64,000 nucleotides of DNA from Cenococcum geophilum 1.58. Its lineage: Eukaryota; Ascomycota; Dothideomycetes; Gloniales; Gloniaceae. A program made the translations under genes and the position numbers. The stretch's first letter is position 1; the number at the start of each line of letters is the position of its first letter. Where the stretch lies: contig KV748185.1 in assembly GCA_001692895.1 (NCBI GenBank), positions 1,240,001-1,304,000 on the forward strand, read 5' to 3'. The notes under the pieces were generated by a model. That model saw nothing but the letters and a program-made list of their open reading frames with translations. It did not search any database and was not told the origin of the DNA. Positions 8,081 to 62,886 of this stretch are shown piece by piece.

Positions 8081-8084
8081 ATTG

Positions 8085-26519: not shown

Positions 26520-27045
26520 CCTAAATCGGATTTCCTTACTACTATTGTACTACTGTCTGTCGACCCAGATCGTATTTATATACTTTGTCTTAGTTGTTTC
26601 TTAATTTATAACTAATTACCCTCTTTCTTAATCGAATGTCTTATTAAATGTTTTATTACCTATTTTTATTACTAATTACTAACTAGAACTTTAAGGTCAA
26701 GTTATAGGAGTAGAAGAGGGTATATACTAAGTATAAGGAGCTAGGTCTACCTAAGGTAGATAATAATTATTTAATAAAAGACTTTATATACGTAGTCGAG
26801 TTAATTACACTAGGCTAGTTAAAATATTAGAAGAATAAATTTTAAAGGCTTAAGTAAAAGAACAAGACTCTTTCTAACTTCTTTAAACTAGTCGAAATAT
26901 ACCGAAACCACTGTTGTACGGAGCTTGCCTAGAAGGGTAAGACTCTATAAAGATCCTTTATAGTTACCTTTAAGGACAAGTCAAATAAGTTACCGAATTT
27001 AAAGCCTAATTCGAAGCCTAAATTATTATTAGTAGATAAGAGGAA

Positions 27046-27471
27046 TGTAACGGAACCTTGTAGCAGGAACTACGATGGGTTCTATTAATGGGCTAGGTGT
27101 GTAGGAAATGTAAAGATAGTAGTTAACAACGTAATAACAATTGGTGGAGTGGTTGCCTAATAGATTAACTCTAATTATATTCTAAGAATTACTATAAGGA
27201 AGGAACTATCTAGGTAGGGACTAAGGGTCCTTAAATACACAACTGTACTCCTATAAAATCCTCCTTATACGCGATATATGTGTTATATATAAGATACGTA
27301 AGTTCCCTTCGTTCCTTACGTTTCTTATATAGCACCTTATATAACCTTGGCTACTATTTCTCGTTATATAGTTCTACGGGTTCCATCTTAGACCGTACTT
27401 ATATTAACCAACTAGCTTCCTCTAACTCTTCTCTAAGTAGTTATAATATTATACTTAAAGCGTCCGTAATA
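27046..27471 (-). repeat. 3' LTR of B2
   Basis: The 426-bp LTR starts TGTAACGGAACC; the inner end reads CCGTAATA, where CA has become TA. Confidence 0.9.
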
Positions 27472-27488
27472 CCATCTCCCTCCTCTTT
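27472..27488 (-). other. Polypurine tract of B2
   Basis: On the minus strand AAAGAGGAGGGAGATGG abuts the 3' LTR. The same tract is kept in B3 (45,402-45,418). Confidence 0.75.
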
Positions 27489-27489
27489 A

Positions 27490-30400
27490 TCTTCGTCCTT
27501 AAAGATACCTAATATCTTTAAGTCGTTTACTAGAGGTATAATGTCCGTCTAATTAATTTAGTTAATATTATTACTTATAATGCTTAAAGCTTCTTCTTCT
27601 TTATACGCGCAACGTCGTGCTTGTACTATTACTATAATATTATCGCTTAGTAAAATAATACTATCTCCGTGTTCTTGTTGCTTAAAAGAGGGGCTAGTAT
27701 ATATTACGTTGGCGAGTCCCTTATCTTAGTAACCCTCCTTTTATTTAAAGTGCACTAAAGCAAACGTTTAATTATCTTGCGATGTTCGCTTTACTTCTAA
27801 CGCTAAGTATACGCGTCCTATAACTCTTAATAGTCTTTAAGTTCCCTAAGTAATTTATTATAGGGTTTTGTATTTAATCTGCTGCTATAAAGCTTAATAG
27901 TAACCTAGCGTAGGCCCTTGCTAAATTTAAGCATTCTTAGGATGCGGAATAAAAGGCTCTAGATACTTACATTACGGCATTTACTCGTTTACTTCGTCTT
28001 AAGAAAGTGCGTAAGAAGGTCCGTTTTAAGGAGTAGAAACTTATAGAATAAGGTCTACAGAAACTTAGTAATAAAAGAATAGGTTCTCTTCTAACAGAGA
28101 AGTAAATAACTCTAAATAGCTTGGTAGTTGCTCTTTCTAGGTCCCCCTTAGGTAACTTATTCTTTAGTAATTTCTCTTTATTAATATTACCTAACCTATT
28201 TTCTTCTAATACTCCTATACCTTTCCTATAGCATTCTTTAAATTCTCTAGTAGCTCCTAGGCAGTCTTAGTGTAGCCTATCTACTTAACCTTATACTATG
28301 TTTTATTATTAATATCCTTATAACTAACAATCCTTAAAACTTACTATTTATCTTCTTCTTATCCTTTATACGTGTCTGCCTTATAAACTAGTGGCTTAAT
28401 ATTCCTATATACTAGCTCTAGCATCGTAATATACTATATAGGGTAGATCTTTATTTTAGCTAGTAGGTTTAACTTAAATATAACTAGTGAAATCCTCTAT
28501 ATAATTTTAAAAGGTCCTAGTCTAATATAGTCCAACTTCTTACTTAGTTGTCAACTTTTAAAATTTTTGTGTAGTAGCTATACTTTATCTCCCTCCTTAA
28601 GATCTAGTCCCTTAGATCTCTTAGCATCGTAGTACTTTTTTATTCTTTACTATACCACCTTAGCTATTTCCATAAGGTCTATATAAAGATTTATTAAATC
28701 CTTTATTCTTTACTTAGCTATACTACTTATTTTCTTTACTTATTATAGCGATAATAATATTCTTGGCTTATATCTATAATTCGCCTTAAATAGTGACGTA
28801 CCTATTCCTTCTTATAGTGTAGTATTATATGCAAACTATATAACTAGTAATAGCAATACCTAATTATTCTATACGTAATTAATATAATGCCTTAGATACT
28901 ACTCTAGTATCTAGTTTAATCTTTCCGTTTAACTATCTATCTGCGGATAATATATAGTGGAAGTTACTGCTTAAACTCCTTATTCCGCTAAGAATACCTC
29001 CTAAAATGCTACTATAAATCTTAGATCTCTATCCGATATAATTTTATTTAATGCTCTATGTCTTATAAATACTTCTTTAATATAAATTCTAGCGATATCT
29101 TCTACTAAGATTTCTTCCGTATAGGCTATAAAGTATCCCTACTTTATAAGCTTATCTACTATTACTAAGATTACGTTATAATCTTATCTAGTAATAGGAT
29201 CTCTTAACTTTAGTAACTTAATAATAAAGTCCTATAATATAACCTCCTATAGTCTCTTTAGTATTTTAATAGGTTATAGCCCTTTATACGGCTTATACCT
29301 TATTAGCTTATTCCTTTAGTAATCTAAATACTCTTTAGTAACTCTTCTAGCTATCCTCTAAATTTTATTAATAATATACTCCTCCTAAAGTCTTAACACT
29401 AAGCCTATAGCTCTATTATGTCCTTAAGTTAGAAGTCCTCCACGAATTACTCTGCTATACTTCTTAGGATATACTTTACTTCTTAATTTTTATATATATC
29501 TAACTATAGATCTTCTACCTATACTTTTAGAATTCTTTATACCTAAAAGCTTTCTAATATCTTATAGACCTTTTTTAACTTATTCTTTTATATAGCTGTA
29601 ATTTTTGGATAATTATACCTAATTAGTCTATCTATATCTTTTTGCAGTAAAGCCCCTAATAGCTTATTGTCATTTTATAGTTTAGCCTTTTAACTTAACG
29701 TATTAGCTCGCGTGTTGTCTATACCCTTAGTATACTAAATCTTAAAATAGTATTCTATAAGCATCTCTGCCTATCTAACCTATCTTTAGTTAAGTTCCTT
29801 TATTATTAGGAATTCTATTAGGTTCTTATAATCTGTTTTAACTATAAATAGTTTTTCTATACCTTATAAAAATACTCTCTATTTCTTTAGTATTATAACT
29901 ATACCTAACAACTCCTTATTATAGATGTTATAGTTTAACTCTAGTAGTGTTATCTTCCGACTATAATATACTACTAAATACTATCTATCTAGATGCCTTT
30001 ATATAAAATATACTTTTAGTATAAAGTCTAATATATCTATTTCTACAACCGTCTCTAGTTCTAGTTAATAGATCTTAAGAACTAGCTCCTAGGTAAATAA
30101 CTCTTTAATTTCCTTAAAGAGTTTTTGCTGTTCCTTTCCCTATACCTATAGTTTTTCTTTCTTTATTAATTGCGTAAATAGTTTAATATTCTTTAACTAT
30201 TGCGCTATAAACCTTCTGCAGTAATTATAAAACCCTAGGAATAATCTTAACTATATAACGTTCTCTAGTTTATACTAATTCGCTATAGCCTTAATCTTCT
30301 TTAGATCTATACTACGTTGGCCTAGTTTAATAATAAATTTAACAAAATTGGTCTTCCTAGTAAAGAACTCGCATTTCTTAATTGCTACTAGCATTTATTC

Positions 30401-33400
30401 TTCCTATAGTCTCTTTAAAACCCATTTAACGTGTTCTCTATACACTTCTTTATTTATTAAGTAGATAATAATATCGTTAAGGTATACTATAACAAATTCA
30501 TCTAAATATTCTCCTAATATATTGTTAATACGCTTCTAGAACGTTGCTAGTGTATTTATAAGCCTAAATTATATAACTAATGATTTATATAGTCCTTCCT
30601 TTAACCTAAAGGCTGCCTTTTATTTATTACCTTCCTTAATCCTAATTTAATAGTACGCCTATCTTAAATCTATTTTCGTAAAAATTTACGCATTACCTAT
30701 TCTATTTTAGATTTCGCTAATTAAGGGTAAAGAATATCTATCCTTTCTAGTAATGCTGTTTAATTGTCTATAGTTAATACATATCCTTAATTTACTATTC
30801 TTTTTTAGTACGAATAGTACTAAATAACCCGCTAATAACTATAATAGTCTAATATATCCCTTTTATAAGTTCTCTTAAATAAACTCTTTTAATACTCTAC
30901 CTTCTTCTTTGGTAAGCTTATAGATTAAAAAAAACCTTAAACTTATTCCTGGTTCTAATTCTATTTTATAGTCCTATACTATATACTTTAACAGCTTTTT
31001 ACTCTTAGGTGACTATAGTTTCTTACTATACTTATAGTATCTTTTTGGTATATAGCTTAGCCCTTTTTTCGTTTCTTTATAGGTTGCTCCTACTTAATAT
31101 TATACTAACTTAGCTTATTATTATATCTTACGGCGTTATATATCTCTAATATTAACCTAACTTATAACCTAATTAATCTTTAGATTATATTTCTGCAACT
31201 AAGGCATTCCTAATACTGCCTTATTATTTCCTAATAGTAATATATTAAAAGACATCTTAACTTATCTTTCTTTAATAGTTAGCTAAATAGGTCCTATTTT
31301 AAGATTAATAATACCTCTTCCATAGGCTATTAGATCTCCTAAAATTATTACTAATAGGTAAGGACGTTCCTTTTACCTATATAGTAACCCTATTCTTTTA
31401 ACTGCTACTAGCAAGATATAGTTCCTTATTGCTCCACTATCTATTAATGCCTTAAACTGTTAATCTTGCCATTTAACTTATAAATTTAGGTATTATTCTT
31501 AAATTCCTTTAAGGGTCTAAGGCTCTACTACTAGCTCCCTTTGGTCCCGTAGGCCTCTACTTTTCCTAACTACTAGCTATTAGATCTTATTTATACTTAG
31601 TCTAACTTAGGCTAATACTTAATTCGTTTTTTATCTTTAATATACTATAGATAGATATTCTCTAGATATTCCCACTATTATTATTTATCTAGGTATTCTT
31701 CCGTAAGGAATTTTCCTAGTTAAAGTATTAAGTCCCCTTATTTTTAAACTTCTACTAGGTGCTAACTATATATATACTTAACGTTTTAATACTTCGCCTT
31801 ATCCGTCATCTAATATATCCTTATTAGAAACTTCTAATTTTTATCCTTTAATGCTCTATGTATATTATATATATTATTCATATATATTATCCATAATAGT
31901 ATATAATATACTTAATGTCTTAAGTTAACTCTCGGTTCGTCTTTATCTTAGAGTTTAAACCTTTCTTATATTAATCTAAGCGTTATAACTTTATTTATAG
32001 GTACTAAGATTTACCTTTTACTTCTCTAGTCCTCTAATTACTCCTCTAAATCCTTTAATATTATAATTAAGGCCCCCCTAATATAAGTTATAGCCTTTTC
32101 TATAATTAAGTGGTCTTAGATAACTTTTTTATCTAACCATATATAGAAATTCTCCCACTTGTCATTATATTATTGCCTATACTACTTTTAGTATAGCTGC
32201 TTAAGTATATACGGCTCGTCTATAAGGAAATATCTCTTTATTACTATGTTATAATAGCCTTTAATATATTATTCCTTAAACCTAATAGGAATCCCTAAAT
32301 CCTCTTCTTATTCTAGTTTAGTAAGCTACTTAGCTCTTAGTATGCCTATTCTAGGCCTATTAGTAATTCTTTATACTAGCGCTCTGTCCTTTATACGTCC
32401 TAATATGCTAGATATCTTATTTAGTTTCTGTTCTTGCTATAAGGTAATTCTTACCCTAAATTCCTCTATAGTTTCTTTTACGTCGCGTCTTATAAGTAAA
32501 TCCTTAAAGTCTTTATACTTTTTAATCTTAGTATTAACTTTTTAATCTTTAGGCTAAACACTATATTCCCCTAGTAAGTCTTCTAGGTCTATATATCTGT
32601 CTCCTAGTCTAATTGCTATTTACGCTATAGATTTTCTAATCTATAAAAAAGCTCCTTACCTCTTACTTATAGGTGTTTTAATTCGCGCTCTAAATTCTTA
32701 ACCCCTTAGATTCTTTAATCCTAAGCTTGCTTCTAACTTAAGCTTAGCTTTAGCCTTAGTCTAACTAGGTTTTACTAATATCCTTATCTTATCTTAAGAG
32801 TCCTAAATCTTACTTATCTTATTTTAAAAGTCTTATACTATTAGGAGCACTTATCCCGCGCTTATTCGTATATCTTTAAACTAAGCTACTACTCTACTTT
32901 ATCGGTTTCTGTCCATTATAGGTCTTTAAGCTTACCTTATCTCGTCTTAAGAATCTTAGTTATTTCTTATCTTATCTTAAGAATCTTAAGCCTTTAGCCT
33001 TTTACCTTTATTAAGTGGTAAGCTAGCACTAGCAGTTATCTGCTTACTTAATCGTCTCTAAATATTACTTCTTCCGTCTTATAAAGCGATAGATGCTATA
33101 TCCAACGGTATTATAATACCCGTTACTAAACCTTGCTTTATAGCGGTCTTAGTCTCTACTTCTATTGCGTTATTAAGGTTTAAATACCCCTAGTTAGTTC
33201 CTTTACTATCCTTATTACTGTTAATTAATAAGTACTTTAACTCTATTATTATTATTACTAATTTTTATCTATATATTGTTATAATATCTTAATCTAGCTT
33301 ATAGAGTTAATCTTATTCTTTATTTAACTTTTTAGTTTCTTTAAGTCCTTTTAACTTTAGCTCTTATAGCTAATAGCTTACACTATACTTAGTGTCCTTA

Positions 33401-34640
33401 TAAATTTGGTATATGTTATTATAACAAAACGCGAAACTTTTAATTAAATACTCTTTTATTTCTTATAGTATACTATTATCCCTCTATATGTATATGTTAT
33501 ATACTATTAATCTAGTTCCCTTTATTATATAGTAACTCTAACTATCTTTATAATCCCTTATAAAGTAACCCTATTTCCTATAATTTATATAAGCTCTATC
33601 TTTAAACTATTAACTTTATTATAGAGTCCGCCTAAATATCTTCTGCTATTAAGATCTCTAGTTTAGCCTCTACTCCTTAGTCCTATAATTACTAAATCCT
33701 TAACCTTTAGGTTTCTATAGTTTTTTACTTTATCTCTTATAGGTTTCTTTAGTACCGCTTAGGTCTATTAGCTCTACGCTATACTATAATTTCTAATTTA
33801 GCTTTAGTTATTATGTACTCTACGTCTTATATAACTATAAAACTCTATCCTAGCCCTTCTTAGCCTATTCCCTTTAGAAGATCCTATTATTAATCTTAAT
33901 TGCTTAATCTATTAATTCCCTTAAGGTATCCGCATCTTCTATTAGAATAATTACGTCCTAGACTTTAGCCTTAAGTCCTTATTTATACTATACTATAAGC
34001 GCCTTATTATTCCATTTAACCTATATTATAAGTATTTAAAACTATATCGTATACTTAATTACTAAAGTTCGCTATATTAGGTCCTAAAGCTTTTTTTTTA
34101 CTATAGTTATTACTTCTAGGTCCCTAAATATTTATATTAATTATTCCGTAAATCCTATCTAGCTAGAAAACACAAATTATACCTCTTAATTAGCAGTAGT
34201 TATTCCGTTAGTCTATATTTCTATTAAGTAGGGTTTAAACTATTTAAGTGCCTAACCCGTTAGGAATAGTCCTGCGTAGGCTATCTAGTCTATTATTATA
34301 GCTAACTTAGCCCCTTCTTACATAACTTTAAAATATATTTATGTTAAAAATCCTTTAAGCTTTAATCTCTTTCCTAAGAATCGTTTAATTAATAGTAATT
34401 TAACCTTTACTACTCTAATTCTATTAAGTCTGTTTTTAAGTACCGTATTATTTTCTATTAATTAATCTACTATTTCTTATAATTATTTTACCGTTATAGG
34501 TTGTTGCGAGTTAGTATCCGCTATACTAGTATTACCCCCTAACCTTAAAGTAGTTGCCGCCGTTAATAGCGTTGTAGTAGCTGCTTTTGGTAGTGTATTA
34601 TTTAACTCTTTATATTTAATACTATAACCAGGTAGTAATT
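27490..34640 (-). pseudogene. Gag-Pol remnant of B2
   Basis: Minus-strand landmarks: the zinc knuckle near 33,560, where Cys/His positions are Tyr (AYINY-K-GYFIKDY); a protease active site still reading ALIDSGAIRNYI (about 31,455-31,415), the best preserved of the three B copies; RT with VYLNDIIIY (about 30,485-30,455), where YLDD has lost its first Asp to Asn. RNase H and integrase follow. More than 2 kb separates zinc knuckle and protease; this long stretch is basic and repetitive and I cannot assign it a domain. Confidence 0.82.
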
Positions 34641-34641
34641 A

Positions 34642-35067
34642 TGTAACGGAACCTTGTAGTAGGAACTACAATGGGTTTTATTAATAGGCTAGGTATATAG
34701 GAAATGTAAAGACAGTAGTTAATAATATAATAATAACTAGTAGAGTGGTTGCCTAATAGATTAACTCTAATTGTATTCTAAGAATTACTATAAGGAAGGA
34801 ACTATCTAGGTAGGGACTAAGGGTCCTTAAATACACAACTATACTCCTATAAAATCCTCCTTATACGCGATATACGTATTATACGTAAGGTACGTAAGTT
34901 CCCTTCGTTCTTCGCATTCCTTACGTAGCACCTTATATAACCTTAGCTACTATTTCTCGTTATATGGTTCCATGGGTTCCATCCTAAACCGTGCTTGTAT
35001 TAACCAACTAGCTTCCTCCAACTCTTCTCCAAGTAGTCGTAATATTATACTTAAAGCGTCCGTAACA
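34642..35067 (-). repeat. 5' LTR of B2
   Basis: The 426-bp LTR starts TGTAACGGAACC, ends CCGTAACA, and is followed by target copy AGGAA. Confidence 0.9.
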
Positions 35068-36430
35068 AGGAAGGATAACCGCTATTACTATACCTATACG
35101 GACTACGCCACTTTTTTAATTAATACTAGTATATAGTAGAGTTAACTTACCTATCTTAGTTTAAACTAGATATTAAGATATAAAAGAAAGTAGAGGAAAA
35201 GATTACTAATATTACGCTTTAAACTAAGGCTTGTATTAAGCAAATTAAAAAGGACAAACGAGCCAATAAATAGCTAAAGGATAGTAATTAGTAGAGCTCT
35301 AAGAAGCTTAATAGAGTCTTTACTATTAATTAAGTAGCTTATAATATAGCCTCTAACTATAAACTTTACAGCAGTATCCTTCTCAGCTTAGGAACTACCC
35401 TATACGTCTTTAACGACTAAAGTAGATTTATTAGTGAAACTAAGCCTTCTATAGACCGTGTCTATATAGGCTTATATATAGAAGAGATCGTCAGCTTTAG
35501 AACAGCTATAGTTATAATTAATACGCCTAAAGGTAAAGAATAGATACTGCTTACAAGAGTAGCCTATATATTAGGCTTCTACACTAACCTAGTATATATA
35601 CAAAAGTTAAATAATAAGGGAGTTTACTAGAATAATAAAGAGAATACCCTCTACTATAGGAACAATAAGACGTACGCCTATTACGGCTACTACTATAGCT
35701 AGATAACCCTTAAATATAATAAGCCAAAGAGCGCCTTATAAGAGGCCTCCTTTGCGACTTAAAAGAAATTATTAAAGCCTCTAAACTAAAAGGTAGAAGG
35801 CTAAATATAGTACTAGCGATTAGGCTATATAGGAAAGGACGCAATAAAGTATCTATTATAGTTAGTAATAGACACGATTTTATAAGGCCCAACTATTATA
35901 AAATAAAAATCTTATGGTGTTAATAAAGCTTATAAGGTTATATTAAGATAACTACTGGCTTAAATAACAATACCTTCCTATAGGATATACCTTAATTTAA
36001 CACCTAGAATAGTTATATATAATAGTAATTAGTATACCATATACTTTATTAACGACGCGATTTAAATTAATAAGGTAGATATAATTACTAAGAAATCGTC
36101 CCTCACCTAAATAGTTATTAGATATTGTAATATCGTTAAACAACAATACGGCTTTAACGTAGCTATAATCTATATAGATAGAGAAATATCTCTAAGAGGA
36201 GACCTTAAGGAATAAATAACTAAATAAGGAGTCCCTCTTAAAATATTAGCACCCTATACTTAGTTTATAAACGGTTTAATAGAATGTTCTAGAAGGGCGA
36301 TTATAGAGAAGGCTTAGTGTATAAGAATTAAAGCTAAGCTACTAGAAGAGCTCTAGCCTAAAGCCTATAAAGTAGCTATATACCTATTTAATCAAAAGCC
36401 TAGCTAATGACTTAGGTAGTTATAGACTAA

Positions 36431-37039
36431 AACTCACCTTAGCGAAATCTGACTCGGTTAGTTAGTATCGCCGCTCTACTTAAGCGCTAAGCACCCTTGC
36501 CTTACCCGCTACTTAGGCCCTATTTAGGCTACTTAGTCACATTCCTACTCCTTTACCTTAGCAACTAATTATGCCTTAAAAATGCTCTGTCTTTATAAGG
36601 CGAATTATTAACTCTATATAACAATCTTAAGGGGCCGTATTTAGGGTCCCTGGGGTTCCTAAAACTAGGCCCTTTTAAAATAGAGTATTTACCTATTCTA
36701 AGCTGCATCTATATTATAATATTACGTCTATAAAGGTTTTAGTTAAAGAGGATACACCTTATCCCTCTTATTATAAAATCTCTCCCTAACCGTGTCCGTT
36801 TACTCTATTTTACCTATCTACCGCTTAATTTCCATTCTATCCCCTCTTCTTTTACCTACTATTTCTTAGCTTTTCCGCCTGTCCGTTTCTTTAAGCTTAT
36901 CTTTATATTTCTTCCTCCCTTTCTTTTTATACTAACTTCTACTTACCTTATACGTTCTTTATAAAATACTAAAAAAACCCTTACTAACTCTTTACTATAG
37001 TAAGAGTAAAGGGTTCTAAGTAAAGTAGAGAGGGTATAG
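36431..37039. other. Unassigned AT-rich DNA between Copia G and the DUF3435 remnant
   Basis: No coding unit or LTR pair is recognised. Integrase similarity fades near 36,430. A pyrimidine-rich stretch (about 36,780-36,960, many TTTCTTCCTCCCTTT-like runs) precedes the DUF3435 start and could be its former promoter or 5' untranslated region. Confidence 0.4.
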
Positions 37040-37690
37040 ATGGTACTAAAGTTTAAAAGCATCTCTAGCTAAAGATAGAGAGAGTTTACTAGAGAAAGGT
37101 AGAGCTATAAAACTAGTAAGTTATAATTAACGTACTATAGTAGCTGGTATTTATCCCGCTCTAACTTTCTACCTCTTTTCTAAATAAATACGCTAAAGAA
37201 TATCTTAATACTACCCTGTATAATATAGAGTTGCTAAAAGATTTGTTAAGAATATAGTATACGGTATTAATAGCGTTAAGGATAATTTAAAAGCAGCATT
37301 AACCACTATTAGCTAGTACTAGAAAGATTTTACAGCTAGCTAACGCCATAACCACTTTATAATATACTTGGTTATAAATATACATTCTATCTATATTCCT
37401 TCTATTTTCTTTTTATTAAAGGATCTAATCTTATTTAGTTTATTAAAGGCCCACTAGCTAATAAGCTAAAATTGTCTTTAAATATAAGGCCTTAGAGGTT
37501 TGTAACTACGAACTACTTTATTTATTTAAGAAGGCAGTTATAGACAGTAGATTAGGTTACGTATAAACGGCCAGCAATAAAAGTAAATAATTAAGCAGAT
37601 CTTATAGCCATTATTTATTCTTCTATATAAGTTGGCGAATATATTAAGTTTAGCTATTAAGCGGATTCCGACCAGGGTTTGCACTATAAG

Positions 37691-37773
37691 GTAAGAACAC
37701 CTCTCTACCCCCCCCCCCCTTAAGGTATATATATAGCGTAGTAAGCAAATAAACTAACTTAATCCTAATATAG
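37691..37773 (+). other. Putative intron of the DUF3435 remnant, with a 12-C tract
   Basis: GTAAGA at the start, an AACTAACTTAAT branch region and TAG at the end; removal joins GLHYK to DVIFLVF in frame. A run of 12 C lies at 37,698-37,709. Confidence 0.65.
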
Positions 37774-39442
37774 GATGTAATATTCCTAGTATTTTATAAC
37801 AAGCATAGAAATGCGGAGTTTGCTATTTAAGTTATTTAAGATACTAAGAATATGACTACGATACTAGACAAGAGGTAAGTGCTAGGTTGCTAAGCCTATT
37901 AAACTAAGTAGCGGTTTTTAATTCTTAAGTTAGAACGCTATAGCACTCTCTATATAAGGGCTTAGTATTAGTGCCTTTTATTTATAACTTAATGCTCCTA
38001 ATACTTACTATCCCTTAGCATACCAAGAGTTTAAGAGAAGAAGGCCCATGCACGAACACCAGAGTCAAAATAGCGCGTATTTAAATTTAGCTAATCTAAG
38101 TAGCCACTTCTTATTGATAAGTTTAGGACTAATTTCAACGTACTAAGGGATACTTATCGCGGCAAAAGCATTTAGGGACTGCAATACTATTAAAGAGCTG
38201 CTTAATATAGTACTTCTAAAGAAGGAGATGCTTTATTTATAATAGAAAAAAAACATACCTAATACGCCTTTTTAAAGAGTATATCCATAAGAGAGAAAAT
38301 CGAAAGGTAAATATATTTAGCTTCCGCCTTAGAGTGCTAGGCTTCCACATAGGATACCCTTAACCGTCTATAATTTACAACTTTAGAGTGGAGGGCTTAT
38401 ACTAGATTAATATATATATAGTTATTCCCTCTATATTAAAGCTATTTACTAATCGATTTCTAGTAAAGATAAGCTATATTTCACCACTTAAAGAATAGAG
38501 CACGCTAAGTCGAGAGATTTAAATACGTTTAGTAATTACTATATACCCAATAACAGTGGTATAAACGGCTAAGCGAGCTACTTCGGCACCAAGTTATGCG
38601 GTATTATTAATAACCTCTTCCGCAGTTTATCTCTCCTATATAACCTAAAACTATAGCAATCTCTTCTAGCGGAGAAGTAATATAAGTTTAAAAATAGCTC
38701 GAAATATATTAATATGGAGGAGGAGATTACTGCTTTAAAAGGGAAGAAAGACCTAAAATCTATTACCTATTAAAAGGAGTTTTACGTATAAAGATATAAG
38801 CTAACTACTAAAGAACTCCGTAAATAGCAGAAGGCATAGCTATATAGGCCAGATATTAAGGATAAAGATAATAACTTACTATGCTATTACCGGACTATAT
38901 TTAACTAAACTTAATTTTTTATACCTAAATAGGAGCGCCTTACCTTTACTCTTTTTTAGGTTGCTACCTTATAGAGCCCTATAGGACTTAGCGCTCTCTA
39001 TAATATAGTTGCGCTATATTAAAAGGATATTATAGTAGAGTTCTAGCCGGGCTTAGAGCTAGAGAAGTATTATTACTCTATTTTAACGAGCTAATAGAAG
39101 CTAGCTTAATCTCTGCTTAGTAATACTAAAAAGAAGACCACTTATAATTAGAGGTATATATATAACTACTATAAGAAGAGTTATAATGGCTTTTTTAAGC
39201 TATACTTCTAGTATAACTGATGGATTTTCGGGGCGGTATAATAAAGTAACCATTACTAAGCGTATCTAGGTAACCCTTAGACACTTCCTATTTAATATAA
39301 CCCTCTTATTTATAGTAGGGTACTTAATACTACCGGCTACTACTATTTCTGCCTTAGTAATACTAATATTACTCTGCTAGCTATAGTGCGGATACGTTAA
39401 TTTCTAAAATAAGCTATATAAAAAGATGTAAGCTTTGCAGTG

Positions 39443-39613
39443 TGTGGGAATTAAACGAGCGACTTAATTGTAAAGCTATGGAAATCAAGAGGTATATATA
39501 CATGAAATGGTGTAGGTAACAAGATAAAATGGGAACAGTGATCTACAATCAATATATAGGGTGGCGTTAACGCTGTCTTGGATCCTTCCAAGCGGTGATC
39601 TTGTGTCTCAGCA
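39443..39613. repeat. Solo LTR (171 bp) inside the DUF3435 remnant, little mutated
   Basis: The LTR starts TGTGGGAATTAAACGAG and ends GTGTCTCAGCA, flanked by target duplication CAGTG (39,438-39,442 and 39,614-39,618). Removing it with one target copy rejoins GCT TTG CAG TGT CGG and lets the DUF3435 frame continue, which supports the borders. A TATA-like GGTATATATACATG lies at about 39,492. Base composition is balanced, unlike the flanks. Strand is inferred only from the TATA-like motif. Confidence 0.78.
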
Positions 39614-40290
39614 CAGTGTCGGTAGTCGGTTACAAAAGAGTATATCTCTAAGCATATAGAAAAACTAAATAAAAGTAGATTAGTAAATTGCCCTTACCTA
39701 GGCTCGCAATATATTACAATATTTAATTTGGTTAAAAAGCTAAAGTTCTATCTTTAAGATATTTATTGCCTTAACTTTACTAAATAAAATAAAAACTACT
39801 AAAAAGATTAAAAGAAGACGGTAAAGTGAAATTAGAGCTAGTAAAAGGCAAAAGGTAAAGGCCCGGCTATAGTAAGGAATTAAGTATAAATAATAAAGCT
39901 CTGGTTAAAGTAGAATACAGCTTTATTAATAAGACAATAGAGAACATTATCTAATATCCATCTAATAAATCCGCGACATCTTTAAGCCGGTCTATATTAG
40001 ATTTCGGCTATTATATAAATAGTAGCTAGACGAAAAACAAAAACTTTCCTAGCACTAATACCCCGCTATTATCTATATGTAGTAGGATTCTTAAAAAGAT
40101 TAACCCTAGACTTTTTGCTTAAGCGGCAGCCTAAAGCAATATAATGTCTAAGTATAATATAATTAAGGTTATAGACCTTATAAACCTTAATAAGAACATA
40201 CCTCTGCTTTTAATTTAAAGATAAATAGCTTACTATCGCCAAATAAATATATAGAGGGTAGTATTAGAGAATTAATGGCTAAAGTATAGG

Positions 40291-40544
40291 ATGGGGAGTG
40301 CCCGCTCCCGCCCTTTATAATCTACTTAAGATATTAGTCTACCTACCCCTATACGCCTAAAGGATAACTAGTTTATTATCAAGTAGTCAGTCAGAAAGCA
40401 TGTCTACTAAGTTAGTTGCTTAATTGCTAATCTATATACTTTATATATATTCTTAATATTAATTTAGATAAGCTAGTAAGGGGCTAGCTTAAGGTTATAA
40501 AGGGTATATTATATACGCTAAATAAGGTAAATTAAGTCCTATAG
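40291..40544. other. Unassigned AT-rich spacer
   Basis: I see no coding or repeat structure in this 254-bp stretch between the DUF3435 tail and element E4. A GC-rich patch at 40,298-40,315 (GGGGAGTGCCCGCTCCCG) can fold on itself and could be part of the gene's 3' end. Confidence 0.35.
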
Positions 40545-41609: not shown

Positions 41610-44600
41610 CAGATAGCTATATTAGGGCTTTAGGGCGCTTTTGTCCCTATACTCCTCCGGTAACTTATCTTCTTTATTATACTAGTATTTTATTTACTTA
41701 TTTAGGTACTTTAGGGGTCTAGGTATATTAGGGTATTAGTTATAAAACTCTTTAAGCTTTTAGAGGTAGCCTATAAAGTTCTATATAGGTACTAGGTTAA
41801 GTTTAGGTTATAGCCCTTCTATTAGACACGGTATTTTAATATTTCCTATATTATCTTATAGGCTAGTATTTTATTAACTTCCTATTCGTTATTACCGTTT
41901 CCTTAAATTAGTAGGGGAGGCTTATTCTTTTGTCCGGGTAATAGGTTATTTATAGCTTTTAATAACTTATCTAGCGAGAAAATAGGGTATACCCTAATTA
42001 AATCTAGGAGCTTTACCTTATATAAGTTGCCTATCTTTTTAAGGACCTTATATAGTCCTACTATCTAGTAGTCCAGCTTATAGCTAGGTTGTTTGGTTTT
42101 ATAATTCCTTGTTATAACCTAGACTATATTACTAGAGGTAAAGTTAGGCTCTTAACGGTGTTTATTCGCCTACTATTTTATTAATCTTTAGGCTTTTCCT
42201 AGGTTTTTATAGGCTACCGTCTAGGCCTTCTTTAAGCGTTTAGCGTACTATCGGGCCTTACTATAGAATAGCTTTTCTTATATAGTTTAGGGTTCTTTTA
42301 GCCTTTTCTAGTTAAAGCTTATATAGGGTAAATATCCCATTTCTAGCTAAATTAGGGCAAACCTTATAGAGTTATGGGGTAGGGTTGCTTGGGCGTAGTC
42401 TATTAAAGGTAGTAGTTTTAACTAGTTGTTTTAGAAGTAGTTAATAAAGGGCCTAAGCCTCTAGTCTAGGTACTAATTATAATCTCTGTCTAACCGTCTA
42501 TTTAGGGGTAGTAAGCTATAGAATACTTTAGCTTAATACTTAGGATTTAGGTGAACTCCTTCTAAAAGGCTAATATAAACTATAGCCTATAATTAGATAT
42601 AATAGTATTTAGTAGTCCGCAAATTCGGTAAATATAGTAAATATATAGCTAGGCTACTTCTTTAGTATTAATGTTTTTATAATAGGGAATTAAGAATAGG
42701 CGTTTACTAAAGCGGTTAACTATAACTATAACTATATTATATCCGTTATAGTCTATAGGTAGTTTATAAAAGTCTATAGAAATATACTGCTAAGGGCGCT
42801 CTAGTATTAGGAGTGGCTTAAGTAGTCCTATAGTTTTGTTTTATAGGGTTATAGCTCTCTAGTAGTCCTTATAGTTCTATATATATTGATTAATATCCAT
42901 AACTATTCTTAACTAATAGTAGTGGTAGTTAATAATCTTACGGGTCTTATTTTTGCTAGGGTGTGCTATAAAGACTTAGCAATAAGCTTTGCGGATTAGT
43001 TCTATTTATAAACTATTAACGTTAGGGACTATAAGCCGCTCCTAGTATAGAAGCAACCCTTCCTTTATTTTAAAATTGGGGTCTTCTTTTATAGCTTAAT
43101 TGCAGAGGGCCTTTAGGGCGTTAGCTGTGCGGTTTACAGCTAAAAGACGATTAATTAGCCCTATTAGTTTATCTAAGGATTCCTCTATTAGTGCTAGCTT
43201 GTTTTACTAAAAGTTTAGCTCCTTAAGGATTTATAGGTTAAGCTGTTTAGGATAAAGGAGGGTGCGCGTCCGGTATTAGGTCTTTAGCTTATTCTAGGGT
43301 TTTATATCTTGTTCTCTTTAGGTTATAGTATTAGCCTTAGAGTTTACTTACTAGAATAATATATAATTATAAAAGAGAATTATAAGAGTAATTTAGCCTA
43401 CTAGGCCTATTATTTAGTAAGCTGCTTTATAGTTATAAAGTACTTTAAGACTTTATAATCTGTATATATATCTTAATCTAGGAGTTTGTACCTTTAAGCT
43501 CTACACACTATTAAAATAGTAATTAAATAATAGCTAGTATTTCTTTATTGTATACTTTATAGTTATACTTAGCTAGGTTTATTATTTTTAAGAAAAAGGT
43601 AATAGGGTACTATTTGCTGTCCGAGTGTAGCTATAATAGGATTCCCGCTATAACCCTATTAGAAGTATCCATTTCTAATATTAATTTAAGGTCTAGGCTA
43701 TAGTAATAAAGAACTAGGGAAGAGATAAGCTAATCCTTTATCTCTTTAAAGGCTTTTATATAGCTATTATTAAATATAAAAGGCGTGTTCTTTTTAGTTA
43801 CGCATATAGGGGCTTTGCTATAATTCTATAATCGCGGATAAATTGGTAGTAAAAGTTATAAAAACTAAAGAAGGGCTAGATCCCTTTTACTATATAAAGG
43901 GGCTTCTAGTAATAGATTACCTCTACCTTCTTAGGGTTAACCTTAATTCCTTTTATAGTTATAATAAACCTAAGGTATTTTATACGTTTTACCCCAAACT
44001 TATATTTCTTAATATTAACTTATAAGCCTACGTTCTGTAGTCTCTCTAAGACCTTCTTAATATAAACTTAATACTTAAGTTTGTTATCTTAGTATATAAG
44101 AATATTATCTAGGTATACCGTGCAGAATTCATTAAGGTAATTAAAAAGAATATTATTTATATATCTTTGGTACGTAGCTAGTCCGTTTATTAGTCTAAAA
44201 GGAAGAACTTTATATTTATAGGAACTATAATAGGTACGGAATGTTGTTAAATCTTTAGATATAGGGTCTATTCTAATTTAGTAGAAAGCTTAACAGATAT
44301 TAAGTTTAGTAAAGATCTTTGCCCGGCTTAGACGTATAAGGGTTTTATTAATTAAAGGAATAGGATACTAATCCTTTTAAGTAATAGTATTTAGCTTTTA
44401 ATAGTTAGTACAAAAATTAAGGCCTTTATTAGGCTTTTTTACAAATAGAATAGGGGAAGTAAAAGGGGCTTAACTTAGCTTGATAAACCCTTTATCTAGG
44501 TTATTAATTATTAGTAGAGGGGGCTATAGCCTAGCAAGTTATTGGCTTTTAATTAAATTTTATAATTATATATCTAGCAAGGGGGTAACTTATTTAAAGC

Positions 44601-44970
44601 CGCTTTTAAGAATATATTCTTATAGTTTATATAAATAGTAGGGACAAGGTGTTTAACTAGTTTTTTATCTATTTCCTTAGCTAACTCTTCTTCCCTATTA
44701 TTAATAATTTGGTTAATTTTATATAAGCTTATTATAAAGACCTTATTATTCTTCCGGTATATATTAAAGTAGAACGCTATAGCGCTAATTATAGCAATAT
44801 CTATTATAGGGGGTTTATATAATAATAGGGGCGTATATAACCTTAGGGGCTTTTAAGGTACTAGCGTTATTATTACTCCTTTTAGCTCCTATCGCATCTT
44901 TTAGAGGTTATCCCTTATATTCTATTAATACGTTCTTTTCTATACCGGTTAGATCTACGCAATTTAGACG
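41610..44970 (-). pseudogene. D2 Pol remnant (RT, RNase H, integrase)
   Basis: The minus-strand RT carries VYLDNILIY (about 44,125-44,100), where the second Asp of YLDD is Asn. RNase H and integrase follow toward 41,700. The sequence matches D1 Pol at 59,640-62,700. Stops at former Gln/Trp codons break all frames. Confidence 0.8.
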
Positions 44971-44975
44971 TCATC

Positions 44976-45401
44976 TATAACGGAACCTTATAGCAAGAAC
45001 TACGATGGGCTCATTATTAGGCTAGGTGTGTAGGAAATGCAAGTACAAAAGTCAACAACGTAATAATAACTGGTGGAGTGGTTGCCTAATAGATTAACTC
45101 CAATTATATTCTAAGAATTACTATAAGGAAGGAACTATCTAGGTAGGAACTAAGGGTCCTTAAATACATAACCGTACTCCTATAAAATCCTTCTTATATA
45201 TAATATACGTCTTATCTGTATTAAATATAGCGTCTCTTACATTTAACGCAGTTAACACGTTTAACCGTTATATAACTTACTTACTATTCTTCGTTATATA
45301 GTTCTATCGGCTCCATCTTGGACCATACCTATATTAACTAACTAGCTTCTTCCGTCTCTTCTCTAAGTAGTTATAATATTATACTTAAAGCGTCCGTAAT
45401 A
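44976..45401 (-). repeat. 3' LTR of B3
   Basis: The 426-bp LTR starts TATAACGGAACC (TG changed to TA) and is followed inward by the polypurine tract at 45,402-45,418. Confidence 0.9.
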
Positions 45402-45419
45402 CTATCTCCCTCCTCTTTA

Positions 45420-48400
45420 TCTTCGTCCTTAAAGATTTAAAATATCTCTAAGTCGTTTACTAGAGGTATAATATCCGTCTAATTAATTTAGTTAATATCT
45501 TTGCTTATTATACCTAAAGCAATTTCTTCCCTATCTTAGGTTAAGCGTCGCCTTTATACCGTCTCCTCAATACTATTACTGGGTAAGGTAATAGCGATCC
45601 CTTACTCCCATTATATAAAAGAGGGATTAAGTTACGTTGCGATCGCGAGTCCTTCCAGTTACTAACCTTCCTCTTACTCTAAATACACTCGCGCCAATAT
45701 ACGTTTATTATGTAACGTTTATTCCGCGTCTAATGCTAAGTATACACAACCTATTACTCTTAATAGTTGTCTAGTTCCCTAATTAATTTATCTTAGGGTT
45801 TTATATTTAATCTGCCGCTATAAAGCTTAATAGTAAGCTAGCCTCTGCGCTGCTTAAGGTCTAATATGCCTTAGAAGAGTCCGCACGCGTCCTTAAAGCT
45901 TAGCGTCTGGCTTACGCCTATCTTTAGCGTCTAGAACGTGTTCGTAAGAAGGTCCGTTTAAAGGAGTGGAAACTTGTTTAATAAGGTTTTTAAAAGCTGG
46001 GTAATAAAAGAACGGATTCTCTTCTAACAGAAAAGGAAACAGATTTAAATAGTTTAGCAACTGCTCTTTTTAGGTCCCCCTTAGGTGACTTATTCTTTAG
46101 CAATCCTTCTTTATTAATACTACCTAACCTAATCTCTTCTAATACTCCTGTACCTTTCCTATAGCATTCTTTAAATTCTTTAGTGGCTCCTAGGTAGTTT
46201 CAGTATAGCCTATCCACTTAACCTCGTACTATGTTTTGTTGTCAATATCCTTATAACTAACGATTTTTAAAACTTGCCATTTATCTTCCTCTTGTCCTCT
46301 ATACGTGTCTGCTTTATAGACCGGTGGCTTAATATTCCCATATGCTGGCTCTAGCATTGCGATGTGCTATATAGGGTAGATCTTTATTTTGGCTAGTAGG
46401 TCTAACTTAAACGTGACCAATAAAATCCTTTATGAAATTTTAAAAGGTCCTAGTCTGACGTAGTCCAATTTCTTGCTTAGTTGTTAACTCTTAAAATTTT
46501 TGTATAGTAGCTATACTTTATCTCCCTCCTTAAGATCTAGTCCCTTAGATCTCTTAGCATTATAGTACCTTTTTATTCTCTTTTATACTTTCTTTACTAA
46601 TTCCATAAGGTTTGTATAAAGATTCATTAACGTCTTTATTCTTTCTTTAGCTATACTACTTGTTTTCTTTGCTTGCTATAGTAATAATAATATTCTTAGC
46701 TTATATCCGTAATTTGCCTTAAATAGTAATATGCCTATCCCTTCTTAAGGTGTTGCATTATATGCAAACTGTATAACTAGTAATAGTAATACCCAATTAT
46801 TCTGTGTATAATTAATATAATGCCTTAGATACTGTTCTAGTGTCTAATTTAATCTTTCCGTTTAACCGTCTGTCTGTAAATAATATATAGTGGAAGTTAC
46901 TACTTAAACTCCTTACTCCGCTAAGAACACTTCCTAGAATGTTGCTATAAATCTTAGATCTCTATCTAATATAATCTTGCTTAGTACTCCATGTCTTACA
47001 AACACTTCTTTAATATAAATTCTAGTAATATCTTCCGCTAAGATTTCTTCTGTATATGCTATAAAGTATCCCCACTTTATAAGCTTATCTACTATTACTA
47101 AGATCGCGTCATAATCTTATCCGGTAATAGGATCCTTTAATTTTGGCAACTTAATAATAAAGTCCTATAATATAACCTCCTATAGTCTCTCCGGTATTTT
47201 AATAGGTTATAGCCCTCTATATAGCTTATGCCTTATTAATTTATTCCTTTAGCAGTCTAAATATTCCCTTATAACTTTTCTAGCTATTCTTTAGATTCCG
47301 TTAATAATGTACTCCTCCTAAAGTCTTAATACTAAGCTTATAGCTCTATTGTGTCCTTAAGTTAGTCCCTTATAAAAGTCTTCCATAAACTGTTCTACTA
47401 TACTTCTTAGGATATACTTTGCTTCTTAATTTTTGTATATATCTATCTATAGATCTTCTAGCTATGCTTCTAGAATTCTTTATACCTAAAAGCTTTCCGG
47501 TATCTTATAGACTTTCTCTAGTTTATCGTCTTCTTAAGTTGCTATAATTTTCGGATAATTATACCTAATTAATCCGTCTATATCTTTTCGCAATAAAGCC
47601 CCTAATGGCTTTTCCTTATTTTGTAGTTCAGCTTTACGGCTCAGAGCATCTGCCCGCGTATTATCTATACCTTTAGTATACTAAATCTTAAAATGGTATT
47701 CCGTAAGCATCTCTACCTATCTAACCTATTTTTGGTTAAGTTCCTTCATTATTAGGAATCCTATTAGGTTCTTATAATCCGTCTTAACTATAAATATTTT
47801 CTCTATGCCTTGCAAGAATGCTCTCTATTCCTTTAATACTATAACTATACCTAATAACTCCTTATTATAGATGTTATAGTTTAACTCTAGTAGTATTATC
47901 TTCTAACTATAGTATGCCACTAGGTGCCATCTATCTTAATGCCTTTATATAAAGTACGCCCCTAGTATATAGTCTAATGCATCTATTTTTACAACCGTCT
48001 CTAGTCCTAGTTAATAGATCTTAAGAACTGGCTCCTAGGTAAACAACTTTTTAACTCTTTTAAAGAGTTCTCTTTACTCCTCTCCCTATACCTATAGTTC
48101 TTCTTTCTTTATTAACCGCGTAAATGGCTTAATATCCTTTAACCACTGCGCTATAAACCTTCTGCAGTAATTATAAAACCCTAGAAACGATCTTAACTAT
48201 ATAACGTTCTTTAGTTCCTACCAATTCACTATAGCCTTAATCTTCTTTAGATCTATGCTAAGTTAGCCTAGTTTAATAATAAATTTAACAAAATTGGTCT
48301 TCCTAGTAAAGAACTTATATTTCTTAATTACTACTAGCATTTGTTCTTCTTATAGTCTCTTTAAAACCCATTTAACGTATTCCTTATGTTCTTCCTCTAT

Positions 48401-51400
48401 TATTAAGTAGATAATAATATCGTTAAGATATACTATAATAAATTCATCCAAGTGTTCTCCTAATATATTATTAATACGCTTTTAGAACGTTACTAGTACG
48501 TTTATAAGCCTAAATTGCATAACTAATAGTTTATACAATCCTTCCTTTAACCTAAAGGCTGCCTTCCATTTATTGCCTTCCTTAATCCTGATCTAATAGT
48601 ACGCCTATCTTAGATCTATCTTTATAAAGATTTGCGTATTACCTATCCTGTCTTAAATTTCGCTAATTAAGGGTAAAGAATACCTATCCTTCCTAGTAAT
48701 ACTATTTAACTATCTATAGTTAATATACAGCCTTAGTTTGCCATTTTTCTTTAGTACGAATAGTACTGGATAACCTGCTAATGACTGCGATAGTCTAATA
48801 TATCCCTTTTATAGATTTTCTTAAATAAACTCTTTTAACGCTCTACTTTCTTCTTCGGTAAGCTTATAGATTAGAAAAAACCTTAGACTTATTCCTAGTT
48901 CTAATTCTATTTTATAGTCCCATGCTGCATATTCTAATAGCTTTTTACTTTCCGGTGACTATAGTTTTTTACCATACTTATAGTATCTCTTTGGTATATA
49001 ACTTAGTCCTTTTTCTGTTTCTTTATAGGTTGCTCCTACTTAGTACTATACCAACTTAGCTTATTGTTACATCTTGCGGCGTTAAGTATCTCTAATATTG
49101 ACCTAACCTATAATCCAATCAATCCTTAGATTGTATTTCTATAACTAAGGTATACCTAACACTACCTTATCCTGTCCTAACGGTAGGATATTAAAAGACA
49201 TCTTAATTTATCTCCCTTTAATAGTTATCTAAATAGGTCCTATTTTAAGATTAATGATCCCTCCTCCATAGGTTATTGGATCTCCTAAAATTGTAACTAA
49301 TGGGTAAGGTTGCTCCTTTTATCTGTAAGGTAGTCCTATTCTTTTAACTACTGCTAGTAAGATATAGTTTCGCGTTGCTTTACTATCTATTAGCGCTTCA
49401 AACTACTAATCTTGCCATTTAATTTATAAATTTAGGTGTTGTCCTTAAATTCCTTTAAGGGTCTAAGGCTCTACCACTAGCTCCCTTTAGTCCTATAGGC
49501 CTCTACTTTTCTTAACTACTAGCTGCTTAATCCTAGTACACTTAGCTCGCTCTTTGGCTAATACCTAGTTCGCTTTTTATCTTTAATATACCATAGATAT
49601 GTATTTTTTAGGCATTCCCACCACTGTTGTCCGTCTAAGCATTTTTCTATAAGAAATCTTTCTGGTTAAAGTACTAAACTTCCTTCCTTTTAGACCTCTA
49701 CTGGATGCTATCTATACATATATTTGGCATTCCTATACTATTACTCGTCTGTTATCTAGTATATCCTTATAAAGTATTTCCGATTCTTTTCCTTTAGATT
49801 CTTATATATGTCGCATATATCGTCCACGTACACAATCTATGATAACGTGTAGTATACTAGGTGCTTTAGGTTAACTCTTAGCTCGTCTTTATCCCTAAGT
49901 TTAAACCTTTATCGTACTAATCTGAACGTTACGACTTCATTTATAGGTACTAAGATACGTCTCTCGCTTCTTTAGTCCTCTAAACGTTCCTCTAAATCCT
50001 TTAACGTTATAATTAAGGCTCCTTTAATATACGTCATAGCCTTTTCTATAATTAGGTGGTCCTGGATAACTTTTTCATCCAACTATATATAGAAATCTTC
50101 CCACTTATTATTGTGCCTCTGCCTATACCACTTTTAGTATAGCTACTAGAGTGTATACGGCTTATCCATAAGGAAGTATCTTCTTATTACTATATTGTAA
50201 TAGCCCTTTATATATTATTCCTTGAACCTAGTTAGAATCCCTAGATCCTCTTTATTTTCCAGTTTAATAAGCCACTTAGCTTTTAGTATGCCTGCTCTTA
50301 GCCTATTAGTAATTCTTTATACTAGTACTCTATCCTTTATACGTCCTAATATACTAGATCTCTTATCTAGTTTCTGTTCTTGCTATACAATAATTCTTTA
50401 CCTAAACTCTTCTATGGTTTCTTTTGGTTTACGCCTTACGCTTTAATCCTTAAAGTCGTCTTGCTTCTTAATCCTAGTATTAAACTTTTAATCTTTAAGC
50501 TAAATACTGCGTTCCCCTAGTAAGTCTTTTAAGTCTATATATCTGTCTCCTAGTCTAACTACTATTTATATTATAGATTCTCTAATCTATAAAGAAGCTC
50601 CTTACCTCTTACCTATAGGTGTCCTTATTCGTACTCCAAAATCTTAGTCCCTTAGATTCTTTAATCTTAAGCTTACTTCTAACTTAAGCTTAGCTCCCGC
50701 CTTAGTCTAACTAGGCGTCTATAGTATTCTTATCTCATCTTAAAAGTCTTAAATCTTATTTATCTCGTCTTAAGAATCTTATACTTATAGAAAACTCTAT
50801 CCCAAGCTTATTCGTATATTTCTAAACTAAGCTGCTACCCTACTCTATCGGTTTTCGTCTATTATAGGTCCTTAGGTATACCTCATCTCTTCTTAAAAAT
50901 CTTAGTCGTCTCTTATCTCGTCTTAAAAATCTTAAGCCTTTAGCTTTTTGCCTTTATTAAGTGCCGAAGTAGTTCGCTATCCTACTTCTCTTACGTCTTG
51001 CGAAGCGATAGACATTATATCTAGTGGGGTTTCGATCCCTACTAATATTCCCTATTCTATAGTGGAATTATCCTCTACCTCTAGTATAACATCTCCGAGG
51101 TCTACTTGCTTCTAATAAGCGGCCCTTATTACCTTATTGTCACGGAATATTTTACCTAAGTTAAATTTATTGTCCTTAATATCCGATCTGCGAACTAGTT
51201 TATTAGTTCCTCTACATCTTATAGGTGCTGGCTCTTATAGCTAATAGCTTACGCCGTACTTGGCGTCCTTATAAATTTGGTATACGTTATTATAATAAAA
51301 CGCAAAACTTTTAATTAAATATTCTTTTGTTCCTCGTAGCACATTATTGTCCCTCTATACGTGTATATCGTCTACTAATCTCATACCTTTTACTATATAG

Positions 51401-52505
51401 TAACTCTGCCCACTTCTATAGTCTCTGATATAATAACCCTGTTTTCCGCAATTTATATAAGCTCTTTCTTTAAACCATTTCTCTTGCTATAGAGTCCGCC
51501 TAAATATCTTCTGCTGTTAAGATCCCTGATTTGGCCTCTGCTTCTTAAACCTTTAATTACTTAATCCTTGTCCTCTAGGTTTCTATAGTTTACTCCATCT
51601 CTTATAGGCTTCTTTAGTACCACTTAGGTCCATTAGCTTAGCGCTATACTATAGTTTCTAACTTGGCTTTTATTGTTGCGTACTCTACGCCTTATACAAC
51701 TATAGAACTCTATCCTAGCCTCTCTTAGCCTGTTCCCTTTAGTAGATCTAATTATTAATCTTAATCGCCTGATCTATTAGTTCCCTTAGGGTGTCCGCAT
51801 CTTCTATTAGGATAATCGCGTCCTAGACTTTAGCCTTAAGTCCCTGTTTATACTGTGCTATAAGCGCCCTATTATTTTACTTTACTTACGTTACTAGTGT
51901 CTGGAACTATATCGTGTACTTAATTGCTAAAGTTTATTACATAAGGTTCTAGAGTTTTCTTTCCGCTATAATTGTTTCTTCCAGGTCTCTAAATATCTAT
52001 ATAAGTCGTTCTGCGAATCCTTCCTAACTTAAGAATATAAATCGCATATCTTAGTTAGTGGTTGTTATTCTATTTGCCTGTATCTCCGTAAGGTAAGGTT
52101 TAAATTACTTAAGTGCTTTTCCTGATAAGAATAGTCCTGCGTAGGCTATCCAATCTATAGGTATAGGTAACTTTGCTTCCTCCTGTGAGACCTTAAAATA
52201 CATCTACGTAAGGAATCCTTTAAGCTTTAACCTTTCTCCTATAAATCTCTTAATTAATAGTAGCTTAATCTTTACTACTCCTATCCCGTTAAGTCTTTCT
52301 TCCAATACTGTATTATTAGCTATTAGCTAGTTAACTACCTTCTGTAGCTGTCCGATCGTCATAGGTTGCTATAAGTTAGTATCTACCATACTAGTATCAC
52401 CTCCTGTCCCTGAAGTAGTTGCTGCCGTCAATAGCGTTGTGGTAGCTGCTTTTAGTGGCATGTTATTTAACTTCTTATATTAATACTATAATTAGGTAGT
52501 AATTG
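45420..52505 (-). pseudogene. Gag-Pol remnant of B3
   Basis: The zinc knuckle near 51,440-51,480 reads AYINCGKQGYYIRDY on the minus strand: one Cys is kept, while the other ligands are Tyr. The protease lies near 49,390, RT near 48,900-48,100, and integrase near 47,400-46,300. The Pol is broken by stops like its sister copies. Confidence 0.82.
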
Positions 52506-52931
52506 TGTAACGGAACCTTGTAGCAAGAACTACGATAGGCTTATTATTGGGCTAGGTATATAGAAAATATAAGTATAAAAGTTAACAACGTAATAATAAC
52601 TGGTGGAGTAGTTGCCTAACAGATTAACTCTAATTATATTCTAAAAATTACTATAAGGAAGGAACTATCTAGGTAGGGACTAAGGGTCCTTAAATACACA
52701 ACCGTACTCCTATAAAATCCTTCTTATACGTAATATACGTCTTGTCTATATTAAACGTAGCGTCCCTTACGTTTAATGTAGTCAACACATTCAACCGTTA
52801 TGTGACTCGCTTACCATTCTTCGTCACATGGTTCTATTGGCTCCATCCTGGACCGTGCCTGTATTAACCAACTAGCTTCTTCCGTCTCTTCTCCAAGTAG
52901 TTGTAACATCGTACTTAAAGCGTCCGTAACA
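52506..52931 (-). repeat. 5' LTR of B3
   Basis: The 426-bp LTR starts TGTAACGGAACC, ends CGTCCGTAACA, and is followed by target copy TCATC. Confidence 0.9.
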
Positions 52932-53078
52932 TCATCTATATTACTATTTATCCCACTACTATATATAGAGTCCTCTTTAAATATAGCACTTTAAAAGAGT
53001 ATCTTTATTAGTATAGAGTTCTTTCTAGCTTCGCGGCGGGCGTCTTCTTAGGTAAAGGCTAGGTTATGGGCCCGGACG

Positions 53079-62850: not shown

Positions 62851-62886
62851 ATAACAATAAGGAGCTTAAACAACGCCTAAGGGCAG

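Follow-up and report, generated by a model that had tools for sequence, protein, structure and literature searches.

What is the decayed DUF3435 gene on contig KV748185.1 of the Cenococcum geophilum 1.58 genome a remnant of? Genes of this family include the captains, the tyrosine recombinases that move the giant fungal transposons known as Starships, and a first-pass annotation of the region had suggested that the gene might either mark the edge of an old Starship or be an independently amplified gene. The gene lies in a stretch of 64,000 nucleotides (the window; C10:1240001-1304000 in our numbering), and we followed it up in the 177.2-Mb genome of the same strain, which consists of 162 contigs (labeled C1, C2, and so on). 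The feature is very probably the surviving 5' end, together with the dead captain, of an old Starship that was inactivated by repeat-induced point mutation (RIP); about 26 such edges, that of the window included, are present in the genome. The evidence is of several kinds: the element terminus, the gene, the family match of a sister copy, the colinear bodies of a group of related loci, an internal DUF3723 gene, and the transition spectrum of the copies.

The 5' terminus lies at position 36,416 of the window (GTAGTTAYAGACYAAAACTC), which is the common start of homology wherever copies keep their end; the position of the homology edge varies by no more than a few base pairs across copies. The captain starts 550 bp further in, at position 36,966, and, as in a Starship, is the first gene of the element and points inward, on the + strand. 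A degenerate 20-base pattern of the terminus, searched genome-wide with up to 2 mismatches, gave 41 matches (20 exact, 6 with one mismatch, and 15 with two); the reversed pattern, which served as the control, gave 6 matches under the same limit, not split by mismatch, and only the set with 0 or 1 mismatch (n = 26) was counted. Within 3 kb of a listed captain match lie 22 of these 26 termini. The remaining four (C19:1346442, C58:60403, C1:4216551, and C32:1107883) are perhaps more copies or solo ends. Among 16 copies inspected, the end adjoins the aligned stretch in 14 and is displaced in two (L020 and L024), whose termini were located further out by the pattern, at C11:11845 and C45:1415184.

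The 14 adjoining termini have 11 distinct left flanks. Four of them (C36, C43, C39, and C18) have 230 to 300 bp of left flank in common, and the other ten have ten different flanks. The flank common to the four loci is perhaps one small repeat; a search for an empty site by means of it found only a weak relative of ~130 bp, at positions 26,542-26,671 of the window. Over the 11 distinct flanks, the consensus has A at -6 in 10, C at -5 in 9, and G at -1 in 10, and it is weak beyond -11. The resulting Y-W-A-C pattern has the appearance of a target preference, as a site-specific recombinase would have; the window flank reads TGAC, with G instead of A or T at -7. No match to the terminus pattern on the opposite strand, as a long terminal inverted repeat would give, was found on C2, C36, or C61.

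Alignment to sister copies shows that the captain gene spans positions 36,966 to ~40,433 on the + strand and has six exons and five introns (Table 1). The first-pass annotation was correct in seeing a decayed DUF3435 gene here, but the limits it drew, 37,040 to 40,290, were too short. The five introns have the same positions in the window and in the sister copies; in the window, GT has become AT at two of their five 5' ends. Homology to the other copies stops at ~40,431-40,433.

Table 1. Positions of the element end, the captain gene, and its inserts in the window
Feature	Position	Strand	Remark
5' element terminus, GTAGTTATAGACTAAAACTC	36416-36435	+	Degenerate pattern recurs genome-wide; homology of the copies starts here
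Target-site-like flank, TGACTTAG	36408-36415	+	Other flanks have Y-W-A-C at -8 to -5
Captain exon 1, start codon lost (ATG to ATA)	36966-37115	+	Alignment to sister copies
Captain exon 2	37188-37379	+	Alignment to sister copies
Captain exon 3	37439-37690	+	Alignment to sister copies
Captain exon 4	37774-37874	+	Alignment to sister copies
Captain exon 5, H-x-x-R box mutated to YNFR at 38376, interrupted by the 140-bp insert	37933-38409	+	Sister copies
Captain exon 6 and tail, Tyr box TFSNYYIP at 38525, C2H2-like finger region, interrupted by the 208-bp insert	38469-40433	+	
140-bp insert resembling a miniature inverted-repeat transposable element (MITE), ends TCCCTTAG / CTAAGGGA, TA target duplication	38011-38150		Not in the sister copies displayed
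208-bp insert resembling a solo long terminal repeat (LTR), TG..CA, 5-bp duplication AAAGA	39427-39634		Dispersed elsewhere in the genome

The two catalytic boxes characteristic of captains are recognizable at the positions that the annotation had given for them. They are read in different frames of the + strand because the intron at 38,410-38,468 separates them; this intron occurs at the same place in the sister copies, and a frame change by decay was accordingly rejected. The H-x-x-R box of the window is encoded by TAC AAC TTT AGA. H-D-F-R is kept in two of the five sister copies displayed at this site (C39 and C18; not in C36, C2, and C61), which bears out the proposal that the histidine had mutated to tyrosine, and each of the two changes in the window (CAC to TAC, GAC to AAC) is of the RIP type. 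The Tyr box is also present. Judged by its sequence, the window copy, with YNFR in place of the box, is a dead captain.

The family assignment comes from a sister copy. When its stop codons are read as X, the less decayed C18 copy (locus L028) matches PF11917 (DUF3435) with 40.3 bits (E = 2.5e-10; cut-off, 25.8) over positions 48 to 306 of the 418 of the profile, and the window gene is tied to this copy by DNA alignment, with 77.8% identity over 1.28 kb. The C terminus of the C18 copy contains a C-P-F-C..H.. stretch that resembles a C2H2 finger, in agreement with the zinc finger that had been noted in the window, and Pfam gave no match for this stretch. With the window frames themselves, Pfam gave only a chance-level match to another family (E = 0.31), and a PDB sequence search gave two matches to unrelated proteins (E = 0.12 and 0.19). 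In the genome as a whole, PF11917 has at least 165 matches (100 of 346 candidates scored), and nearly all of those listed carry stop codons.

Searching the genome with the DNA of the window gene gave at least 79 matching stretches, one of them the window itself (40 of 925 candidates scored). A tree of 15 sequences places the window with the copies on C45, C19, C11 (4.6-9.6 kb), and C55 in a clade, termed A, that has a support of 1.00; the remaining sequences, termed B, are those on C2, C36, C61, C18, C39 (two), C43, C28, C11 (57-62 kb), and C44. The A and B copies have the same 5' terminus. The B copies of C2 and C36 differ by 121 transitions and 0 transversions in 1,270 bp, and C2 differs from the other eight B copies by 113 to 155 transitions and 1 to 10 transversions in ~1.27 kb. 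Since these differences are nearly all transitions, most B copies were near-identical at the time of their spread; RIP-type differences are found in all ten B copies compared. The window differs from the four other A copies by 123 to 173 transitions and 12 to 17 transversions in 1.0 to 1.3 kb, so that the A wave looks older. The A copies are more diverged than the B copies, and several of them are split by other sequence. Together, these copies look like two waves of RIP-killed elements in one genome. Between the B majority and the window, C-to-T changes are more frequent at CpA (21/50) and CpG (37/87) than at CpT (38/229) and CpC (28/121). The composite RIP index, computed per 2-kb bin and taken as positive above 0, is 1.03 to 1.42 at 36-42 kb of the window, where CpA is depleted relative to CpT.

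The B loci have bodies that extend far beyond the captain. C2 and C36 form a single 8.0-kb alignment from the 5' end, with 91.4% identity. The end of this alignment was considered as the 3' end of the B element and rejected, since eight other loci continue and C36 carries a nested insert; those continuing are C2, C18, C43, C61, two on C39, and, with gaps, C28 and C11. The stretch at +7-8 kb was found in nine B loci. Probes taken from C2 at +8.4-13.4 kb and +24-27 kb matched B contigs, and the probe at +42-45 kb matched C11, C36, C61, C39, C43, C18, and C28, so that eight loci are colinear to about +45 kb. The probe at +77-79 kb matched C36 and C61 and, elsewhere, C21 and a diverged place on C28 (40 of 54 candidates scored). 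C2, C36, and C61 align from +79 to +86 kb, and C2 is aligned with C36 to +92 kb and again on the far side of a 5.6-kb insert in C2. From C36, an 8-kb segment at +105-113 kb has a full-length match at C2:2558681-2566627, which reaches +119 kb on C2, and partial matches in C61, C18, C43, C116, and others. A probe at C2:2550001 detected common repeats only and was uninformative; C2:2508001-2510000 was compared with the window only. Because C2, C36, and C61 have no common left flank, the best interpretation of their long common body is a single mobile unit, as opposed to a chromosome block that was duplicated. The B loci thus lie within the 15 to 700 kb of Starships, with a body beyond the captain, and are not small elements without cargo of the Crypton-like kind.

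The B bodies also contain a gene of the Starship accessory type, a set that comprises DUF3723, FRE, PLP, and NLR genes. A genome search with DUF3723 (PF12520) gave at least 88 matches (85 of 174 candidates scored). A listed match is present in eight of the nine B loci that have the +7-8 kb stretch (C2, at +21.0 kb, and C36, C61, C39, C18, C43, C11, and C28); none is among the matches listed for the second C39 copy. In seven of the eight, DUF3723 is on the same strand as the captain, the exception being C28.

On the other hand, the window copy keeps only the 5' 4.0 kb of the element and is cut at 40,433, and other repeats lie downstream. The A copies on C45, C11, C55, and C19 likewise end at varying points a short way past the captain. 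The block downstream of the C45 captain also follows the captain tail in C19, another A copy, and in the B copies of C43, C39, and C18, which suggests that the A elements were of the same build.

Several observations weigh against the interpretation as a Starship end. The PF11917 comparison that the first-pass annotation had called for succeeded with the sister copy, but the gene of the window itself gave no match as frames, as exon pieces, or as pieces joined by X. Past 40,433, the window has no match longer than 54 bp to the body stretches compared, and no DUF3723 near the window copy is among the matches listed. In C55, the downstream block joins the captain inside exon 6, so that it could be a separate repeat. 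With regard to the B bodies, colinearity was established by sampled probes, with the C2 stretches at ~13-24, 27-42, 45-77, and 98-110 kb outside the comparison; the loci on C18, C39, C43, C11, and C28 are absent among the matches of the +77-79 kb probe at the scoring depth given above; and the bodies were followed to +113 kb (C36) and +119 kb (C2), short of the 3' end.

One rival idea is that only the B copies are Starships, the A clade with the window copy being a short, captain-only element (Crypton-like or solo) that amplified itself. The scattered ends of the A copies and the lack of a visible element body in the window speak for it, and among the matches listed no DUF3723 in the captain direction lies within 100 kb of any A copy (one on C17 is 29 kb away, on the other strand). 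We nevertheless regard this idea as unlikely. The A and B copies have an identical 5' terminus, the C45 and C19 copies run into the same downstream block as the B copies of C43, C39, and C18, and the greater divergence and the splitting of the A copies also count against it. An origin of the copies by segmental duplication, and not by transposition, is much less probable still: the left flank common to C36, C43, C39, and C18 would fit such an origin, but the ten other termini have ten flanks with a constant homology edge, and C2, C36, and C61 have the long body in common and not the left flank. The first-pass annotation had also raised the possibility that mutation leaked from neighboring sequences, and on this reading the gene would be a single-copy host gene hit by the RIP of adjacent repeats. 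The surroundings are indeed RIP-positive, in 31 of the 32 2-kb bins of the window; however, at least 20 dispersed relatives of the gene exist, enough alone to trigger RIP, and this copy number contradicts leakage and makes the explanation hardly credible. The same relatives agree with the statement of the annotation that RIP implies a former duplication. The terminus in many flanks, the colinear B bodies, and the internal DUF3723 favor the edge of an old Starship over an independently amplified gene.

By analogy with Starship biology, the captain of such an element would cut and join the element ends and insert the element at a short YWAC-like target. The family multiplied by transposition, as supported by the same 5' end in different flanks and by the long colinear bodies, and after it had reached several copies it was struck by RIP, as supported by the transition excess in the copies compared, the loss of CpA, and the stop codons. 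The window copy presumably gained its MITE-like and LTR-type inserts afterward and lost the sequence past 40,433 to later insertions or a deletion.

The B captains show an additional feature. In C36, a chromodomain (PF00385; 30.8 and 32.4 bits; cut-off, 25.1) is located downstream of the finger region in the frame of exon 6. In the 2,247 bp that begin with exon 6, the captain frame of C36 contains 31 stops, compared with 73 and 108 in the other two frames. The indels of seven other B copies relative to C36 have lengths divisible by three, apart from two: C28 has lost 1 bp, and C11 has gained 8 bp at a point past the chromodomain. Of the two tryptophan positions in the chromodomain, one reads TGG in three of eight copies (C28, C44, and C18) and the other in one of eight (C39); the remaining copies have stops there, as RIP would produce. 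Codon 717, just past the chromodomain, is TGA in three copies and TAA in five and is likely to be the genuine stop. Counting against a single frame, all eight copies (C36, C2, C43, C28, C44, C11, C39, and C18) have 13 stops upstream of the chromodomain in common, codon for codon; these stops, which start within the recombinase region, may be saturated RIP sites or decay that predates the burst, and a genuine stop may be among them. An earlier reading of two of them as tryptophans of the chromodomain was dropped on re-examination. The A copies of the window, C45, and C11 lack the chromodomain core. We put forward only tentatively, at somewhat less than even chances, a Starship lineage whose captain had a C-terminal chromodomain, a single protein that would combine recombinase and histone reader, and which reached at least eight near-identical giant copies before RIP, the window copy belonging to an older wave without the chromodomain core. 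No fusion of a captain with a chromodomain is described in the available text of the papers found on Starship DUF3435 genes or captains with a chromodomain.

The longest open frame of the window (positions 23872-25410; 512 amino acids) matches the fungal transcription factor family PF11951 with 27.4 bits (cut-off, 21) and lies mostly inside the sole 2-kb bin of negative RIP index. Two LTR-retrotransposon-like units of ~8 kb (27045-35067 and 44978-52937), of one family with direct terminal repeats of 425 to 430 bp, are located in RIP-positive DNA, and a further partial copy of this family is found at 3562-8507. A 6.1-kb unit at 57115-63206, with 301-bp direct terminal repeats (90.7% identical), is an inverse relative of 42301-44979. 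Another decayed PF11917 match is located ~21 kb past the right edge of the window (C10:1325096-1325812). The DUF3723 and DUF3435 matches of the genome, at least 88 and at least 165, mostly contain stops in the listed rows and possibly represent several more dead Starship families. A different type of DUF3435 gene is nearly intact at C49:752543-753905 (L001 and L005); it has C-terminal C2H2-like fingers as in the window family, whereas the window family has its own conserved terminus and giant bodies.

The arrangement at these loci resembles that of described Starships. The captain of Sanctuary in Bipolaris sorokiniana is reported at ~350 bp from the 5' edge, and DUF3723 is listed among the Starship accessory genes in the same paper (PMC12506042); RIP has been reported for the captain of Frontier in Alternaria ventricosa (PMC12257634) and for whole elements in Gaeumannomyces (PMC11905480). 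As in Starships such as these, a DUF3435 captain comes first, a few hundred base pairs from the 5' edge, in an element of giant size with a DUF3723 accessory gene. As a difference, the family described here is present in a single genome in several near-identical copies, of which those compared are RIP-mutated, and the chromodomain lies in the captain frame of the B copies, whereas the published descriptions of Sanctuary and Frontier place it in a gene of its own at the opposite end. The authors of the Frontier study suggested a captain plus a separate chromodomain gene as the minimal unit (PMC11857905). Among the Hephaestus and Phoenix families, the target of Hephaestus is given as TTAC(N7)A and that of Janus, for which a chromatin domain (CHROMO) is listed, as A(N3)TTACTA... 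(PMC12153272). The present elements likewise have TTAC or TAAC beside the 5' end, but with six bases, not seven, before the A. According to the same source, a Starship occurs at most once per strain in A. fumigatus, with few exceptions, some other species accumulate several copies, and RIP can degrade multicopy Starships (PMC12153272). Since multicopy Starships and RIP have already been reported, the kind of event recorded here is known.

A genome with two apparent waves of RIP-killed copies is a fossil record of the copy number that a giant element can attain before RIP stops it, of its choice of target, and of the changes in its captain. If the in-frame chromodomain of the B captains is real, it would link the action of the captain directly to chromatin targeting.
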